A DNA stretch of 64,000 nucleotides from a virus: the IMG/VR virus record IMGVR_UViG_3300030104_006883, positions 1 to 64,000 of that record; one strand, 5' to 3'. Made by a program: the position numbers and the translations under genes. The notes beneath the pieces were generated by a model that saw only the letters and a list, made by a program, of their open reading frames with translations, ran no database searches and was not told the DNA's origin. Positions 1-24,878 of this stretch are shown here, in pieces. Numbering within the stretch: the first letter of the stretch is position 1; the number at the start of each line of letters is the position of its first letter.

Positions 1-1
1 C

Positions 2-76
2 GGTGGCGACCGCAAGAATCCCGGCCCAACACTGGAAAGAAACAGTATGCTGGAGTTTGTCAATGAAAGTCGGTGA
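2..76 (+). CDS. C-terminal end of an SH3/KOW-like small protein (partial)
   Basis: Only the last 24 codons are inside the window. The reading frame ends in LEFVNESR followed by TGA. This is the same C-terminal signature (L-E-x-V/I-S/N-E-S-R) shared by the downstream array members, so I infer it is the preceding paralogue. Its stop lies inside codons 4-5 of the next gene, and its GGAG (in the CTG GAG codons) is the ribosome site of that gene. Confidence 0.6.
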   Translation, partial: GGDRKNPGPTLERNSMLEFVNESR

Positions 77-233
77 TTTGGTAAGGCATACAAGAAACGG
101 AGAGCCATTCGGGGAAATCCTAGTGGTAACGGCACAGAAGCTCAGTGAGACAAAAAATGAGTTTGTCAAGCTTTCTGGCGGGAACCCGTGGCTACCAGCG
201 ATATGCATGACAGTTATCAGTGCAGCAGAATAA
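63..233 (+). CDS. small SH3/KOW-like protein (MKVGDLV family), array member 1
   Basis: 56 residues beginning MKVGDLVRHTRNGEPFG. The start K-V-G-D-L-V followed by short alternating hydrophobic strands is typical of small SH3-like beta-barrels seen in large phages. The function is unknown; nucleic-acid or protein binding is possible. It overlaps the end of the previous paralogue by 14 nt. It ends ISAAE rather than SESR and is the last gene before a new promoter. Confidence 0.7.
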   Translation: MKVGDLVRHTRNGEPFGEILVVTAQKLSETKNEFVKLSGGNPWLPAICMTVISAAE

Positions 234-236
234 ATC

Positions 237-264
237 TTTACTTTTATTCTTTCTTGATTATAAT
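237..264 (+). promoter_or_regulatory. sigma70-like early promoter (TTTACT-16-TATAAT)
   Basis: TTTACT at 237-242 and TATAAT at 259-264 are separated by 16 nt, directly before GAGGG and the start of the next SH3-like gene. It matches the box pattern repeated before most genes up to 9.5 kb. Confidence 0.8.
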
Positions 265-270
265 GAGGGC

Positions 271-450
271 ATGATGAAAGTCGGTGATTTAGTAAAGTTT
301 ACAGTGTCGCAGTATCTAGGTACTATTATCTGTGTCGATGAGGCTCGATGCGGGATTTTCGTGCATGGCGAGGCTCCGTTTAAAAACCCTACCTGGATGA
401 GCATGGATATGCTCAAAAGAAACGCGGAGGCTATCAATGAAAGTCGGTGA
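271..450 (+). CDS. small SH3/KOW-like protein, array member 2
   Basis: 59 residues starting MMKVGDLVKFTVSQYLG. ATG at 271 or 274 follows a GAGGG site and the promoter at 237-264. The C-terminus AEAINESR overlaps the next gene by 14 nt, with TGA inside its codons 4-5. Same family as its neighbours; function unknown. Confidence 0.75.
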   Translation: MMKVGDLVKFTVSQYLGTIICVDEARCGIFVHGEAPFKNPTWMSMDMLKRNAEAINESR

Positions 451-613
451 TTTGGTAAGATATAAAAGTGAGACACTAGGTTCCAACCCGGCTGTTTTGG
501 TGGTCGCTGTTCAACCGGGCATCGAAACCATGGTTGTCACTGTCAATCCTAACAGCGGCTTTCGTGCAGCCCGATTTGCGAATCAACTGGAGATTGTCAG
601 TGAAAGTCGGTGA
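437..613 (+). CDS. small SH3/KOW-like protein, array member 3
   Basis: 58 residues, MKVGDLVRYKSETLG to LEIVSESR. The start ATG lies inside the 3' end of the previous gene and GCGGAGG, 8-14 nt upstream, is its ribosome site. It follows the array pattern exactly: start overlap, beta-rich body and the LEIVSESR end that carries the next ribosome site. Function unknown. Confidence 0.7.
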   Translation: MKVGDLVRYKSETLGSNPAVLVVAVQPGIETMVVTVNPNSGFRAARFANQLEIVSESR

Positions 614-764
614 TTTTGTTACGATAAAGGGCAGAGAGGAATATGGAGCCGGTAAAATTATCAGGTTCTATGCTAATCAAGGTACCATTTTGGTTCAATT
701 TATTAAAAGAGAAGCGGTAGTATACTGCGACTATTCGGTATTGGAGAGTCATGAAAGTCGGTGA
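600..764 (+). CDS. small SH3/KOW-like protein, array member 4 (GTG start)
   Basis: 54 residues, (M)KVGDFVTIKGREEYG to SHESR. GTG at 600 is the start because it lines up with the K-V-G-D-F-V motif of the other members and has GGAG 8 nt upstream, within the previous gene's Leu-Glu codons. Translation is probably coupled to the upstream gene. Function unknown. Confidence 0.7.
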   Translation: MKVGDFVTIKGREEYGAGKIIRFYANQGTILVQFIKREAVVYCDYSVLESHESR

Positions 765-921
765 TTTGGTAAGAGCGTCCCATTGGGATGAAAGTCACAC
801 TGCTGTCGTCATCAGTACAAAGCGCCTGGAGACTGGAATTGTTACAGTCTTGGGCTCTTTTGGCTGGGAACTTGACCAAGTAGCACGCGATTTGGAAATT
901 ATTAATAGCGCAGTGAAATAA
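751..921 (+). CDS. small SH3/KOW-like protein, array member 5
   Basis: 56 residues, MKVGDLVRASHWDESH to LEIINSAVK. ATG at 751 overlaps the preceding gene by 14 nt, with TTGGAGAG upstream. The end has drifted from the SESR signature to NSAVK. This matches the fact that no gene overlaps it: a new promoter follows immediately. Function unknown. Confidence 0.7.
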   Translation: MKVGDLVRASHWDESHTAVVISTKRLETGIVTVLGSFGWELDQVARDLEIINSAVK

Positions 922-924
922 AAC

Positions 925-952
925 TTTACTCTCTCTCTTGTGAGATTATAAT
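925..952 (+). promoter_or_regulatory. sigma70-like early promoter (TTTACT-16-TATAAT)
   Basis: TTTACT 925-930 and TATAAT 947-952, 16-nt spacer, preceded by TGTGAGAT. It is followed by AGGAGG at 961-966 and the ATG at 972. Confidence 0.85.
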
Positions 953-971
953 CTAGCCATAGGAGGCAGCG

Positions 972-1193
972 ATGAAAGTGGGTGACATGGTTAGGCTTCT
1001 GGACGACCCAGAGGTTCGCAGGGATAACGCAGATATCCCCCCTGATGCTCTCGGCATCGTGGTTCAAGAGTCCTTGACTGCTTGTTTCCAGATGGGTGGA
1101 GCACTGCCGTCGATGTGGGTCCAGTGGCCCGGTCGCGACGATACAGACTCAATGTTTGTCGAAGACCTGGAGATTATCAGTGAAAGTCGGTGA
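972..1193 (+). CDS. small SH3/KOW-like protein, array member 6
   Basis: 73 residues, MKVGDMVRLLDDPEVRRD to LEIISESR. It has its own promoter and AGGAGG, so it heads the second transcription unit of the array. It carries a longer loop (residues 10-30) than its neighbours. Its 3' end holds the GGAG and GTG start of the next gene. Function unknown. Confidence 0.75.
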   Translation: MKVGDMVRLLDDPEVRRDNADIPPDALGIVVQESLTACFQMGGALPSMWVQWPGRDDTDSMFVEDLEIISESR

Positions 1194-1350
1194 TTTGGTC
1201 AGATATAATGCAGGCGGCGAAAATTACAAGCTTTTGGCTATTGTAGCCAAACTTAATACGCCTGGAGGCACGGTGAGAGCTATCGATGCCAAAGGTAAGT
1301 TGCACTGGCTCGTCAGTTCTTGCTGCGAGGTCGTCAGTGAAAGTCGGTGA
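1180..1350 (+). CDS. small SH3/KOW-like protein, array member 7 (GTG start)
   Basis: 56 residues, (M)KVGDLVRYNAGGENYK to CCEVVSESR. GTG at 1180 is chosen by alignment with KVGDLV and by CTGGAG 8-13 nt upstream. Same architecture as the other members; two adjacent cysteines near the end are unusual for the family. Function unknown. Confidence 0.7.
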   Translation: MKVGDLVRYNAGGENYKLLAIVAKLNTPGGTVRAIDAKGKLHWLVSSCCEVVSESR

Positions 1351-1504
1351 CTTGGTAAAGTGCGTCTCTGCTAATGGAGTTATCGGGCTGGTAGTAGAAC
1401 TTCGACGCGGCGCAACAACTCCGATGGTTTTCGATGTGCTCATTGGCAACAAATCATATCCCTTTTTGCCTCATCAGGTGGAGCCTATCAGTGAAAGTCG
1501 GTGA
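1337..1504 (+). CDS. small SH3/KOW-like protein, array member 8 (GTG start)
   Basis: 55 residues, (M)KVGDLVKCVSANGVIG to VEPISESR. GTG 1337 follows GCGAGG in the upstream gene. The sequence is strand-rich (GLVVELRR, MVFDVLIG), as expected for a small barrel. Function unknown. Confidence 0.7.
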   Translation: MKVGDLVKCVSANGVIGLVVELRRGATTPMVFDVLIGNKSYPFLPHQVEPISESR

Positions 1505-1721
1505 TTTGGTAAAATATATTGGCTCAGATGCTATGTATCGCGACCGCATTGGCGTTGTCGCAAAGCTCTACGGGGCCATTGACGAGCGAATTGACTCTGC
1601 GCTGGTTCACTTCGCTGAACTCAAAGGCAAGGGCCGCGACGGGTTTCGGTTCGAGGACAACAACAACGGACTGCATCCGATGGCGCTCTTTGAAATTAAA
1701 ACTTTGACTTCTGAATCCTAG
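1491..1721 (+). CDS. small SH3/KOW-like protein, array member 9 (GTG start)
   Basis: 76 residues, (M)KVGDLVKYIGSDAMYRDR to KTLTSES. It is the last array member and longer than the others. GTG 1491 follows GTGGAG in the previous gene. The end stops at SES and carries the -35 box of the next promoter, so the junction has switched from translational coupling to an independent promoter. Confidence 0.7.
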   Translation: MKVGDLVKYIGSDAMYRDRIGVVAKLYGAIDERIDSALVHFAELKGKGRDGFRFEDNNNGLHPMALFEIKTLTSES

Positions 1722-1731
1722 AGATTATAAT
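1704..1731 (+). promoter_or_regulatory. sigma70-like early promoter (TTGACT-16-TATAAT)
   Basis: TTGACT 1704-1709 lies within the last codons of the preceding gene, TATAAT 1726-1731, 16-nt spacer. GGAGG at 1741 and ATG at 1751 follow. Confidence 0.85.
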
Positions 1732-7389: not shown

Positions 7390-7578
7390 ATGAAAGGCAG
7401 GCCCAAGAAGGGTGACTTGGTTGAGGCTCACTCAGGAAACTTGACCAAGGTCGGAGTGGTCGTTGACAGTATCTTCTCGTGGGCGACCATGGATGACTCG
7501 TTCATTGTCCAGTTGAATGATGGTGCAAGGCGAATCCATGTGCCACGCGACCAGTTGTCGGTGATAAGCGACAAATAA
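7390..7578 (+). CDS. small SH3/KOW-like protein (KKGDLV family)
   Basis: 62 residues, MKGRPKKGDLVEAHSGNLTKVGVVVDSIF. KKGDLV followed by short strands marks it as a paralogue of the array at 1-1.7 kb, here with its own promoter and AAGGAGG. Function unknown. Confidence 0.75.
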   Translation: MKGRPKKGDLVEAHSGNLTKVGVVVDSIFSWATMDDSFIVQLNDGARRIHVPRDQLSVISDK

Positions 7579-7875: not shown

Positions 7876-8070
7876 ATGAAGATTGGCGACTTGGTTCAGA
7901 CCCGAATGGGTACAAAGGGAATCATTGTTGGCGTGAGGCGAGGTGCTCCCCAGCCAGATGAATGTGACTACGATGAGTTCGAGGTTTACTGGTCTGCTGA
8001 TGGTGTTTCTTTTTGGTACGACCCTGATGACTTTGGCCATCGTGGTGAGCTTGTGGTGACTTCACCTTAG
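7876..8070 (+). CDS. small SH3/KOW-like protein (MKIGDLV family)
   Basis: 64 residues, MKIGDLVQTRMGTKGIIVGVRRGAPQPDEC. Another dispersed paralogue of the array family, rich in acidic and aromatic residues in its second half. It has its own promoter and an AGGGGG ribosome site. Function unknown. Confidence 0.75.
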   Translation: MKIGDLVQTRMGTKGIIVGVRRGAPQPDECDYDEFEVYWSADGVSFWYDPDDFGHRGELVVTSP

Positions 8071-11442: not shown

Positions 11443-11691
11443 TTAGGATTCCGAGACTACGATTAGGTTGTTGACTGGCTGCACTTGATCGGGCTGTCCT
11501 TTGAACTCTTCGAATTTGATCCACTCTATTTCTGCATAATCTTCGTAGTAATGCTTTGCCTTGGCAGTCTTAAGCGTTGCGCTTTGGAATAATTTAGTAA
11601 TAACCCCTAAACAAGGAAGATAATGTATGTTAAAATTTCTTCCTGGGTATTTGCTTTTTATACTTACTAAATCACCAACCTTGATGTCCAT
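11443..11691 (-). CDS. SH3/KOW-like protein (KVGDLV family) on the minus strand
   Basis: 82 residues, MDIKVGDLVSIKSKYPGRNFNIHYLP to VVSES. It shares both the KVGDLV start and the VVSES end with the array at 1-1.7 kb, but is A+T-rich and lies alone on the opposite strand. It converges with the coiled-coil gene across a 67-nt gap containing TTGGC-AAC-GCCAA. Confidence 0.75.
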   Translation of the reverse strand: MDIKVGDLVSIKSKYPGRNFNIHYLPCLGVITKLFQSATLKTAKAKHYYEDYAEIEWIKFEEFKGQPDQVQPVNNLIVVSES

Positions 11692-15831: not shown

Positions 15832-16113
15832 ATGAAGTTTAAGATAGGTGATTTAGTCACTCTTAAAGACTCATCTAAAGAAAATCGTAAGCATACGGCT
15901 AGGCAGTGTAGGCTAGGTGTTATACTTGCTTATGAGACGCTTAACGATGTCTTGTTGTACAAAGTACACTGGTGGCCGTTTAATCAACCTTTCTATTTTG
16001 AAGGCCATGACCTAGAGATAGCATCTAGAGTCTTTTTACATGACCCTATACCCATAGGGGGTAGTGGCTCACTTATCATTGATGATGATTTTCCCATAGG
16101 ATCTAACGACTAG
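15832..16113 (+). CDS. SH3/KOW-like protein (KIGDLV family), 93 residues
   Basis: MKFKIGDLVTLKDSSKENRKHTARQCRLGVILAY. Starts like the array family, with strands VILAYE and LLYKVHWW, and a Gly/Asp-rich tail. Another dispersed paralogue. Function unknown. Confidence 0.7.
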   Translation: MKFKIGDLVTLKDSSKENRKHTARQCRLGVILAYETLNDVLLYKVHWWPFNQPFYFEGHDLEIASRVFLHDPIPIGGSGSLIIDDDFPIGSND

Positions 16114-17129: not shown

Positions 17130-17534
17130 ATGAAAAAGTTTAAAGGTTGGAATAACTTTTTAAATGAACTGGAGGACGACACGAAAATTGTCGCTAAAGC
17201 AGTTATATACGTTGATGAAAAAATTCTTATGTTAAAAAAAGCAAAAAATTCAAAATGGGATCTCCCCGGTGGACACCTTGTCAAAGGAGAAACAGTGTTG
17301 CAAGGACTAAAAAGAGAAATTAAAGAAGAGACCGGTCTTTACATAGATACCAGCGTTGCCGAGTTGGTACAAAAAAGCGCACATAAATTTTATTATAAAC
17401 TCCCGCTACCTGACGGTATAATATCATTAAGTGGCGAACACACAGAGTATCGCTTCATATCAAAATCCGACATTGACAATCATGACATCTCTAGGAATTA
17501 CAAGAATGTCATTAAAAAGTCTTTTATCGGATAA
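17130..17534 (+). CDS. Nudix hydrolase with head-targeting-like N-terminus
   Basis: 134 residues, MKKFKGWNNFLNELEDD onward. The N-terminal W..FLNE matches the tag found on several neighbours. The Nudix box is complete: G-(5)-E-(7)-REIKEETGL at about residues 47-69. Nudix enzymes hydrolyse nucleoside diphosphate derivatives (NTPs, NADH, ADP-ribose, RNA caps). A virion-packaged Nudix enzyme could act immediately after DNA injection; that is inference. ATG 17130 is preferred over an upstream frame that overlaps the previous gene. Confidence 0.85.
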   Translation: MKKFKGWNNFLNELEDDTKIVAKAVIYVDEKILMLKKAKNSKWDLPGGHLVKGETVLQGLKREIKEETGLYIDTSVAELVQKSAHKFYYKLPLPDGIISLSGEHTEYRFISKSDIDNHDISRNYKNVIKKSFIG

Positions 17535-17943: not shown

Positions 17944-18214
17944 GTGGAAAAGCATCTCCGAAAACGAAGTAGAAATATCTTATGAAGATGATAAAGGAGA
18001 TTTGACTATAATAGGTAAGGTTTTTAGAAAACCGTTTACTCTAAAATGGAACATAGATGTATATTTTTTTCTACCCAATAGTCACACAATAGATTTAGAC
18101 GAAACTTTTGATAGTGAGATAGATGCAGGAAGAAGAGTCGCTAACTTGTGGGAAGTAAACAGAGATTATGAATATTTTAATTTAGAGAGTTTTTATGACG
18201 AAACAATTTATTAG
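17897..18214 (+). CDS. unknown 105-residue protein
   Basis: MQKKGSKIFLPKKKTRWKSISENEVEISYEDD onward: a basic N-terminus, then strands (TIIGKVFRKPFTLKW, DVYFFLP). Overlaps the upstream microprotein by 47 nt and the downstream lipoprotein by 20 nt. No clear ribosome site. Not recognised. Confidence 0.6.
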   Translation: MQKKGSKIFLPKKKTRWKSISENEVEISYEDDKGDLTIIGKVFRKPFTLKWNIDVYFFLPNSHTIDLDETFDSEIDAGRRVANLWEVNRDYEYFNLESFYDETIY

Positions 18215-20093
18215 AGTTCTTACGTTACTATTACTAACAGTAGCGTTGATGACTTGCTCCGAGAGTCAAAACGAGAGAGCAGAACTTACGTTTGATACAA
18301 AATCGCATATCTTTAATAAATCTCTCTCTCCGGAAATGATTCACTATTTTGCAAAAAACAATTATGAAAAAAGATGTTATAAATTTGAATTTTACTTTTG
18401 TCCTCCGCTAGACGAAGTTTGGCAAATGCAGGTTACAACAGATGTCTGCAAAGATCCTCCTGAAATCATTTCTATTAGCGAGTGCTTTGAAATCTTTGAA
18501 TGCGACCCAAGCACACCGGACTTGGGAGATGTTGATTGTACAACTGATGATGGATACCCCGGTACTCAAAAGAAAATTTGTGATAAAGGTAAAATAAAAT
18601 ATACTGATTGCACCTCTTTGTGTTCTGAAGAAATCTGCGACTACGAGGACAATGATTGTGATGGCCATATCGATGAGGGGCAGAGGAACGCTTGCGATGA
18701 ATGTGGCTTCTTGCCGGAAGAAGCTTGTGATAACGTGGATAACGACTGTGATGGTGGTACTGATGAGGACTTGATTCAAGACTGCTATTCTGCTTGTGGG
18801 GGCGGTATTGAGTACTGCGTTGGTGGTATCTGGGTTTCTTGCACAGCGCCCCCTGTCCAGACAGAAATATGTGACGGATTCGACAACGATTGCGATGGAC
18901 AAATCGATGAAGGTATAAATTGTGAGTGTACAATCGCAGACGTTGGAGTTCTTTTCCCTTGTAAAGAAGAACCTTTAATATGCGGGGAAGGATATAAAAC
19001 TTGCGAATGCACAACGCCGGACTGCTCGGAGATTTTGACAACAGACTGTGTATCTCCTTGTGTGTATTTCCCGGTACCGGACGAGGAATGCGATCCTACA
19101 AAAGGTGCTGTTGCTGCTGAAGAATGTAATAATTATGATGATAACTGTAATCAATTAATTGACGAAGACTTGTTTGAAATGTGTTACACTGCTGACCCAG
19201 AGACGCTGTTTGTAGGTATTTGTAAACCTGGTATTCTGACGTGCTACAAAGGGACTTGGGGCAATTACTTTGAGGGTATACCTGACTATTTCGTACCGGG
19301 TCTTTGCAAAGACGAAGTAACACCTCAAGAAGAAATTTGCGATGGTGTAGATAACGATTGTGATGGCGAAACAGACTCAGGGGAAGAATTGGGACCTGTT
19401 GACGTTCTCTTTATCGTTGATTGGTCAGGATCGATGGATACAGAGATATATGCTGTTATGTCTGCTCTTAATAAGTTTGCTGCTAGCTACAGTGACGAAG
19501 AGGTTTTACAATGGGGTACTATTCTAGGACCTATAGACCACGCTTGGAATAATTCAGAATACTTAAATCTTTACCATAATCTTAGTGGATTTAGTGACTT
19601 TCTATCTTCAATGTCACAATTAAATATAAGTTCTTGGGCAATGTCGGGTGCTAGAGAGATGATGATGGACGCGATATATCTCTCGTTGCACAATCTCGTT
19701 GGGTCTGGGTCTTTGCCAGTTGCCATTCCCCCGTTGAAATGGGCCACAGGCACTGGAGTTACTGAATCTCAACCTCCAATAAAAGATTTTATCATTAACT
19801 GGCGAACCGATCCAGAGGTTAAAAGAGTTATCGTGCTGTTTACCGACGAGGGCTCTCAAAGCTATACTATTCCGGATATCACACAAGATATCCTGCTTGA
19901 ACTAATAGGAAAAATTACAAATACTAAAATATACATATTTTCTCAAACAATTCATAAGGACAACTGGATTGCGCTTGAGGGATGGGATCCCCTTTGTGTC
20001 GCTTCTGGCGGCAAATGGTACCAGCTAACTGACGATATGGTGACTATGTATAATAGCCTAATGGAAATTATTGACGAAAACGCCTGTAAGTAA
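18195..20093 (+). CDS. lipoprotein with MopE-type Cys/Asp repeats and a VWA domain
   Basis: 632 residues. The signal segment (RVLTLLLLTVALMTC) ends in a lipobox-like LMTC. Five Ca/metal-binding-type repeats of the form E-x-CDG-x-DNDCDG-x-x-DE occur at about 146, 178, 226, 309 and 380. A VWA domain with MIDAS motif DWSGS starts at about 401. Such repeats are typical of secreted proteins of Myxococcota and related bacteria. In a phage the protein could decorate the host surface (superinfection exclusion, adhesion) or the virion. Its origin by transfer from the host is inference. Confidence 0.75.
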   Translation: MTKQFIRVLTLLLLTVALMTCSESQNERAELTFDTKSHIFNKSLSPEMIHYFAKNNYEKRCYKFEFYFCPPLDEVWQMQVTTDVCKDPPEIISISECFEIFECDPSTPDLGDVDCTTDDGYPGTQKKICDKGKIKYTDCTSLCSEEICDYEDNDCDGHIDEGQRNACDECGFLPEEACDNVDNDCDGGTDEDLIQDCYSACGGGIEYCVGGIWVSCTAPPVQTEICDGFDNDCDGQIDEGINCECTIADVGVLFPCKEEPLICGEGYKTCECTTPDCSEILTTDCVSPCVYFPVPDEECDPTKGAVAAEECNNYDDNCNQLIDEDLFEMCYTADPETLFVGICKPGILTCYKGTWGNYFEGIPDYFVPGLCKDEVTPQEEICDGVDNDCDGETDSGEELGPVDVLFIVDWSGSMDTEIYAVMSALNKFAASYSDEEVLQWGTILGPIDHAWNNSEYLNLYHNLSGFSDFLSSMSQLNISSWAMSGAREMMMDAIYLSLHNLVGSGSLPVAIPPLKWATGTGVTESQPPIKDFIINWRTDPEVKRVIVLFTDEGSQSYTIPDITQDILLELIGKITNTKIYIFSQTIHKDNWIALEGWDPLCVASGGKWYQLTDDMVTMYNSLMEIIDENACK

Positions 20094-24566: not shown

Positions 24567-24878
24567 GGGGGTGAATTGGTATCGACTGGGTATTGACAAC
24601 CAGACGTGCAAGGCTGTGTGAGTGTGGCACAGTAAAAACACTCAAAACTTTAATTGCTAACGACAACGTTACTTTTGATTACGCCCTAGCGGCATAACCA
24701 CGGGGTGGCAGCAACCTTGTTAACCAAAGCTGCAAATTAAAGGTTTTTTTTACTAGCCTTACTTAATAGTAAACAACTTGAGTTTAGAGCTTGTTGGAGC
24801 CTATAACCAACTAACCTTGTGAACGACGTCTTTTTTGATATATGTAGGACTCGGGTTCGACTCCCGACACCTCCACCA
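24567..24878 (+). ncRNA. ssrA: transfer-messenger RNA (tmRNA)
   Basis: 312 nt. The 5' end GGGGGTG (24567-24573) pairs with CACCTCC (24868-24874), followed by encoded ACCA. T-arm TCGGG-TTCGACT-CCCGA at 24851-24867. The tag frame starts at GCT 24656 and ends at TAA 24695-24697, encoding ANDNVTFDYALAA, with the ALAA end recognised by ClpXP-type proteases. The 5' GGTATCGACTGGG matches the conserved tmRNA 5' domain. It should rescue stalled ribosomes and tag products. Intact and unpermuted. Confidence 0.93.

Follow-up and report, generated by a model that had tools for sequence, protein, structure and literature searches.

A double-coding junction in arrays of small SH3/KOW-like phage genes carries translation signals and appears to act as a crossover site

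Results

An array of small overlapping genes in a T4-like phage

The stretch analysed here (the window) comprises the first 64 kb (64,000 nucleotides) of an IMG/VR record of an uncultured virus, 185,927 bases in length. From its sequence, we take the source to be an uncultured T4-like phage of ~186 kb; a gp23-type major capsid protein gene lies at 121.7 kb (PF07068, E = 5e-61), and the isolate relatives all show <60% identity. At 63-1721, nine complete paralogues of 54-76 codons each follow one another, preceded by the tail of a tenth gene at 3-76 (Table 1), which confirms the nine paralogous genes with a shared junction described in an earlier note made from the sequence alone. The array extends upstream over the contig ends, to 185163-185927, and single paralogues are also found at 7-16 kb and 174-184 kb, the record containing 24 matches to the family profile in total. 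The four dispersed copies that the note had placed in the window were all recovered by this profile. For seven of the nine genes (starts 63, 437, 600, 751, 1180, 1337 and 1491), the overlap with the gene before measures exactly 14 nt. The other two, at 274 and 972, do not overlap and are separated from the preceding genes by a TTTACT-N16-TATAAT promoter; the proteins upstream of these internal promoters end with ISAAE (stop 233) and INSAVK (stop 921), and the loss of the SESR end where a promoter replaces the overlap was thus correctly noted.

Table 1 Features of the array and its paralogues in the window.
Feature	Position	Strand	Description
Tenth array gene, 3' end	3..76	+	Ends LEFVNESR; 5' part at contig 185326-185514
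Junction CTGGAG-TTTGTCA-ATGAAAGTCGGTGATTTGGT	50..82	+	Ribosome site, upstream C-terminus/stop, downstream start and crossover homology; putative function, by comparison
Array gene 1	63..233	+	56 aa, MKVGDLVRH...VISAAE; promoter next; no ESR end
Sigma70-like promoter TTTACT-N16-TATAAT, genes 1/2	237..264	+
Array gene 2	274..450	+	58 aa, ends AEAINESR
Array gene 3	437..613	+	58 aa, ends LEIVSESR; protein used for AlphaFold model
Array gene 4	600..764	+	54 aa, GTG start, ends VLESHESR
Array gene 5	751..921	+	56 aa, ends LEIINSAVK; promoter next
Sigma70-like promoter TTTACT-N16-TATAAT, genes 5/6	925..952	+
Array gene 6	972..1193	+	73 aa, ends LEIISESR
Array gene 7	1180..1350	+	56 aa, GTG start, ends CEVVSESR
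Array gene 8	1337..1504	+	55 aa, GTG start, ends VEPISESR
Array gene 9, last	1491..1721	+	76 aa, GTG start, ends TLTSES (TCT GAA TCC TAG); no overlapping gene
Equivalent junctions	424-456, 587-619, 741-770, 1167-1199, 1325-1356, 1480-1510	+
Promoter-like TTTGAC-N17-TATAAT	1703..1731	+	Overlaps 3' end of array gene 9; read from sequence
Dispersed paralogue	7390..7578	+	Family HMM E = 2.6e-5; no overlap; ends LSVISDK
Dispersed paralogue	7876..8070	+	Family HMM E = 1.1e-9; no overlap; ends LVVTSP
Dispersed paralogue	11443..11691	-	Family HMM E = 4e-5; no overlap; ends LIVVSES (TCG GAA TCC TAA)
Dispersed divergent paralogue	15832..16113	+	Family HMM E = 1.7e-6

The contig ends (window 1-486 and contig 185440-185927) are near-duplicates of ~93% identity with exact arms of ~77 nt, and they diverge over array genes 1-2 together with the intervening promoter. 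The pattern resembles a bubble formed in assembly between two variants of a circularly permuted genome; a tandem duplication left unresolved would be the alternative. In addition, array gene 1 has a GTG at its -14 position whose frame continues through the promoter into gene 2 (220-273, 18 codons), as though 54 bp carrying the promoter had been placed inside what was once an overlap junction.

The AlphaFold model of the gene 3 protein (pLDDT 92) is a five-stranded SH3-like barrel with strands at residues 6-9, 20-26, 32-36, 43-47 and 51-55. The last strand corresponds to L51-S55 (L-E-I-V-S), and E-S-R lies beyond it. The best fold matches among solved structures include the R67 DHFR, Tudor and Spt5 folds, Foldseek matches (E > 0.001) being spread over many different SH3-like folds, and profile matches to KOW are weak (Spt5, E = 0.0025; NusG, E = 0.09). 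Searches of Pfam and PHROGs returned no family below E = 0.01, tblastn of two members against isolate phages returned no match, and no function was obtained from these searches or from Foldseek; a variable accessory or host-takeover role would be a guess.

The 14-nt overlap is found in hundreds of phage loci

The family profile search retrieved 2,426 distinct members from 393 phage loci. The overlap between adjacent family genes is exactly -14 in 972 of 1,289 cases, the next class being -4 (n = 166); after clustering at 50% identity, the first set of loci gave 259 (-14) vs 62 (-4). As usual prokaryotic gene overlaps are mostly -4 and -1 (reviews PMC12548453, PMC3887535), the -14 excess is far above chance when the expectation is taken from these reviews. 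Among 22 large records, copy number is mostly 11-31, with three copies in one record and none in three. No description of such an array was found in the literature searched, which included few papers from subscription journals. Four loci (L052, L100, L112 and L155) have -1 junctions, in which a CGGAGG ribosome site lies within Ser-Glu-Ala codons (TCG GAG GCA TAATG), a second way to hide a ribosome site in a C-terminus.

The E-S-R tail is the next gene's start read out of frame

An overlapped junction is read twice, for example as ..ATC AGT GAA AGT CGG TGA by the upstream gene and as GTG AAA GTC GGT GAT by the downstream gene. The terminal (S/N)-E-S-R is the M-K-V-G-D start of the next gene read out of frame, and the upstream tail tracks the downstream codons: M-Q-V yields ASR, M-K-I yields ENR, a Lys AAG codon yields EGR and a Val GTG codon yields ESG, while Gly4 = GGC removes the upstream stop so that the tail continues (e.g., NESRRSC at -23). 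This tracking bears out the proposal that a single sequence encodes, in two frames, both ESR-stop and the KVG start.

ESR ends were detected in 607/1186 members with a -14 start vs 9/1240 without, and all nine exceptions still lie on a KVG start. In eight of these, the -14 position retains an ATG or GTG, with a downstream frame that is short, interrupted or unscored; the ninth has its KVG start at -20. SESR ends lacking an overlapping KVG start were looked for among the 2,426 members and not found, in agreement with the earlier expectation that SESR occurs only where there is a downstream overlap. When a non-family gene precedes a -14 family start, it acquires the same tail in 52/58 cases, vs 2/130 for homologues of these genes located elsewhere without such a start. 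Of these two, one proved on inspection to lie before a family-like MKVGD start. Where the overlap is -4, the upstream protein often ends at LEVI or soon after, with no ESR. Taken together, these comparisons indicate that E-S-R is not maintained by protein function, and that its immediate cause is the N-terminus of the next protein. The idea that translation signals, rather than protein function, keep the C-terminal peptide therefore stands in its negative half only, since it is the following N-terminus that determines the tail.

Because most loci were retrieved by the start motif, which biases the counts of K2, V3 and G4 codons, Gly4 was assessed on the loci not fetched by motif, in which the codon is GGT at 51/51 overlapped vs 38/63 non-overlapped starts. 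The bias of the Val3 codon toward codons giving Arg is weak (p = 0.005), and no conclusion rests on it.

The remaining part of the tail has a mixed origin. (S/N)E(S/A) ends occur in 50/1240 members without a -14 start, mostly in other codons such as TCG GAA TCC, and, in the first set of loci, 18 of 22 Ser tails without a -14 start used TCN or AGC serine codons. GTG, which gives the upstream Ser, is favoured at family-family junctions (562 GTG : 409 ATG), whereas ATG is used after non-family upstream genes (55 ATG : 9 GTG). Since the same ends are found in other codons without the -14 overlap, and GTG is favoured between family genes, the terminal Ser and Glu are partly native to the family proteins.

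A Leu-Glu in the predicted last strand is written with the probable next ribosome site

Upstream of the tail, Leu-Glu-hydrophobic is also present in members without any overlap and is therefore a protein-level feature, predicted by the model to be part of the last beta strand. The earlier note had given L-E-(I/F)-(I/V) as the common end; it is literal at three of the seven window junctions (63, 600 and 1180), the others having AEAI, VLES, CEVV and VEPI, where the ribosome sites are CGGAGG, TTGGAG, GCGAGG and GGTGGAG. GAG is fixed in the Leu-Glu codons only where a start follows. The GAG:GAA ratio of the Glu codon is 891:32 at -14 and 76:10 at -4, against 56:68 in genes that lack a nearby start; on 50% clusters, it is 244:9 (-14) vs 18:23 (no start nearby; p = 3e-16). 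This codon shows one synonymous change among 128 pairs of close relatives, and the spacer between the ribosome site and the start is 6-7 nt in 323/391 overlapped starts. As read from these codons, only the GAG and the start codon would be translation signals, the tail being set by M-K-V-G-D with Gly = GGT.

The gene bodies have a dN/dS of ~0.20; the proteins are therefore maintained. The dN/dS of the last four codons is raised, in non-overlapped members too (0.46 vs 0.51), and relaxed tails are therefore not unique to overlaps.

Gene gain and loss borders fall at the junction

Loci L054 and L057 are 99.5% identical and differ by one array gene of 176 bp, bordered by the 20-nt repeat ATGAAAGTCGGTGATTTGGT, with the flanking genes intact in both versions. 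Similarly, a single gene of 175 bp, with a junction repeat of 40 nt, sets L298 apart from L300 (99.2-99.3% identity). Overall, 29 pairwise comparisons yielded 21 distinct inserts of one to ~ten genes each, bordered by direct repeats of 15-51 nt. A family start is present at one border in all 21 and at both borders in most, vs 33% and 8% for random placement, in a sample enriched for junctions by the repeat required at indel borders. Of 89 homology breakpoints, 70 lie no more than 30 nt from a start, vs 25% expected, a count inflated by alignments that run on through similar junctions before ending. Five further array indels show no junction repeat, and the case for junction recombination is therefore strong but not exclusive: it is not the sole route by which array genes are gained or lost. 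From these alignments, the junction appears to bound gene gain and loss between close relatives, and so would also act as a crossover site. This role is new, the earlier note having proposed none.

In a concerted-evolution test, codon identity within vs between genomes was 0.64 vs 0.50 for codon 3 and 0.40 vs 0.30 for codon 6, with 0.28 vs 0.27 for the control Gly. These differences are only modest, and gene conversion is not claimed.

Discussion

The reading that we favour, with a probability of about 0.8, is that a junction with four jobs, shared by diverse SH3/KOW-like array genes and subject to recombination, explains the array as a whole. The array would consist of diverse single-domain SH3/KOW-like phage proteins encoded by translationally linked early genes, adjacent genes sharing a junction of ~35 nt, GGAG-N6/7-RTGAAAGTCGGTGAYTTGGT. 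The Leu-Glu of the last upstream strand, written with GAG, would provide the next ribosome site, the codon choice being visible in the counts and initiation at that site presumed. The upstream protein enters the next gene by 14 nt and stops at the TGA within GGT-GA, as read at the overlapped junctions, and RTG would begin the next protein, whose predicted first strand M-K-V-G-D-L-V is conserved at the protein level. Finally, homologous recombination at the junction would add or remove whole genes with their neighbours left intact; the borders are observed and the enzymology is presumed. Neighbouring genes resemble each other nowhere else, which would place recombination there. Translational coupling and homologous recombination are the processes suggested by the sequence comparison. 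The frame was probably favoured by native C-termini that are often V-I-S-E-S/A: Ser-Glu-Ser encoded as AGTGAAAGT contains GTGAAAGT, a Met-Lys-Val start that would already be present within it.

We lean, with less assurance, toward the further view that the junction is a cassette boundary that is coding throughout and preserves itself. Recombination between any two junctions would leave a gene whose C-terminus, ribosome site, stop and start are all intact. Arrays could then be reshuffled without a recombinase or a non-coding site, and the cassette could settle behind genes of other kinds too, at the cost of an E-S-R tail on them.

Three other explanations were weighed. Ordinary translational coupling, in which selection for the ribosome site and start spacing keeps the junction and recombination has no role, would account for the 6-7 nt spacer and for the strong GAG fixation at -14 and also at -4, but leaves unexplained the borders of gene gain and loss inside the junction of near-identical phages; we consider it unlikely as a full account. 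It is less probable still that L-E-V-I-S-E-S-R is a functional C-terminal motif, for binding or degradation, with the overlap as a by-product. L-E-V-I and SES/SEA ends in non-overlapped members, mostly in other codons, and the preference for GTG, hence Ser, between family genes would fit such a motif. Yet ESR appears on unrelated upstream proteins only where a family start is present, proteins at -4 junctions often stop at LEVI or shortly beyond, the tail lengthens when the Gly4 codon changes, and the dN/dS of the last four codons is raised. As a family motif or degradation tag, ESR itself is ruled out by the tail on non-family genes.

A recent tandem duplication, with too little time for the junctions to diverge, is suggested by the head-to-tail paralogues and the near nucleotide-identical junctions of the window. 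We regard it as highly improbable, as the bodies have diverged strongly (mean column identity 15%) while the junction codons are fixed, the same junction turns up in hundreds of phage loci, also next to unrelated genes, and homogenisation within over between genomes is only modest. The 15% identity of the bodies and the recurrence of one junction across ~390 loci also led us to reject chance as the source of the junction. The four-job junction remains the preferred reading.

We rate the array as a variant combining two kinds of systems already known, coupled overlapping genes and boundary-sequence recombination. As in translationally coupled overlaps (NTGA -4, TAATG -1; PMC12548453), the start lies inside the upstream gene (at 7 window junctions and 972 family-wide) and the ribosome site in upstream codons, here under selection as GAG, and by analogy the short spacing is expected to give coupling. 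The array differs by a 14-nt overlap in the other phase, repeated along an array of paralogues, and by a tail peptide dictated by the conserved N-terminus of the next gene. Boundary sequences of phages are short conserved sequences at gene ends, at which homologous recombination swaps whole genes (discussed in PMC3029335); the array shares this property, but has the same boundary at every paralogue and beside unrelated genes, and this boundary is itself double-coding. PeSL, the mobile promoter/stem-loop cassettes of T4-type phages (Arbiol 2010, Comeau 2014, as cited in PMC4503421), are, as far as that citing account describes them, short repeats that lie between the small early genes of T4-like phages and are believed to bring about modular shuffling. 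As for PeSL and boundary sequences, the repeated border sequence coincides with gene gain and loss borders, in the 21 distinct inserts. Unlike PeSL, as summarized there, the array junctions are wholly protein-coding in two frames and carry a ribosome site but no promoter, promoters being found inside the array only at 237 and 925. Integron gene-cassette arrays likewise hold small head-to-tail genes gained and lost as units; here, the crossover site is coding and recombination is apparently homologous. The predicted small five-stranded barrel and the K-x-G-D-x-V start recall the KOW/SH3-like domains of NusG/Spt5, uL24 and eS4, although the family proteins are single domains of 54-95 aa.

The array offers natural controls that separate terminal residues due to a protein's own function from those due to the start of the next gene, as unrelated proteins get the E-S-R tail only when a family gene comes next. 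Before a conserved C-terminal peptide in overlapping genes is taken for a functional motif, a control in which the upstream gene is unrelated is therefore needed. The array also suggests a simple route by which phages could build a fast-changing bank of small accessory genes, the boundary being at once a translation signal and a crossover site.

Other features of the window

The phage genome includes a tmRNA gene at 24567-24878, with the tag ANDNVTFDYALAA. A 632-aa protein encoded at 18195-20093 has repeated CDNVDNDCDG motifs and an apparent von Willebrand A domain, which is unusual for a phage. Judged from sequence only, a long island at 40500-63500 contains glycosyltransferase, epimerase, aminotransferase and keto-acid dehydrogenase-like genes, which would suit surface sugar synthesis. 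Seven otherwise different proteins (at 17130, 20911, 24918, 26537, 27493, 28957 and 29308) share an N-terminal leader like MKLLLENWRKFLNE, which we take to resemble the capsid-targeting leaders of T4 internal proteins; by analogy, these seven proteins may be packaged and injected.
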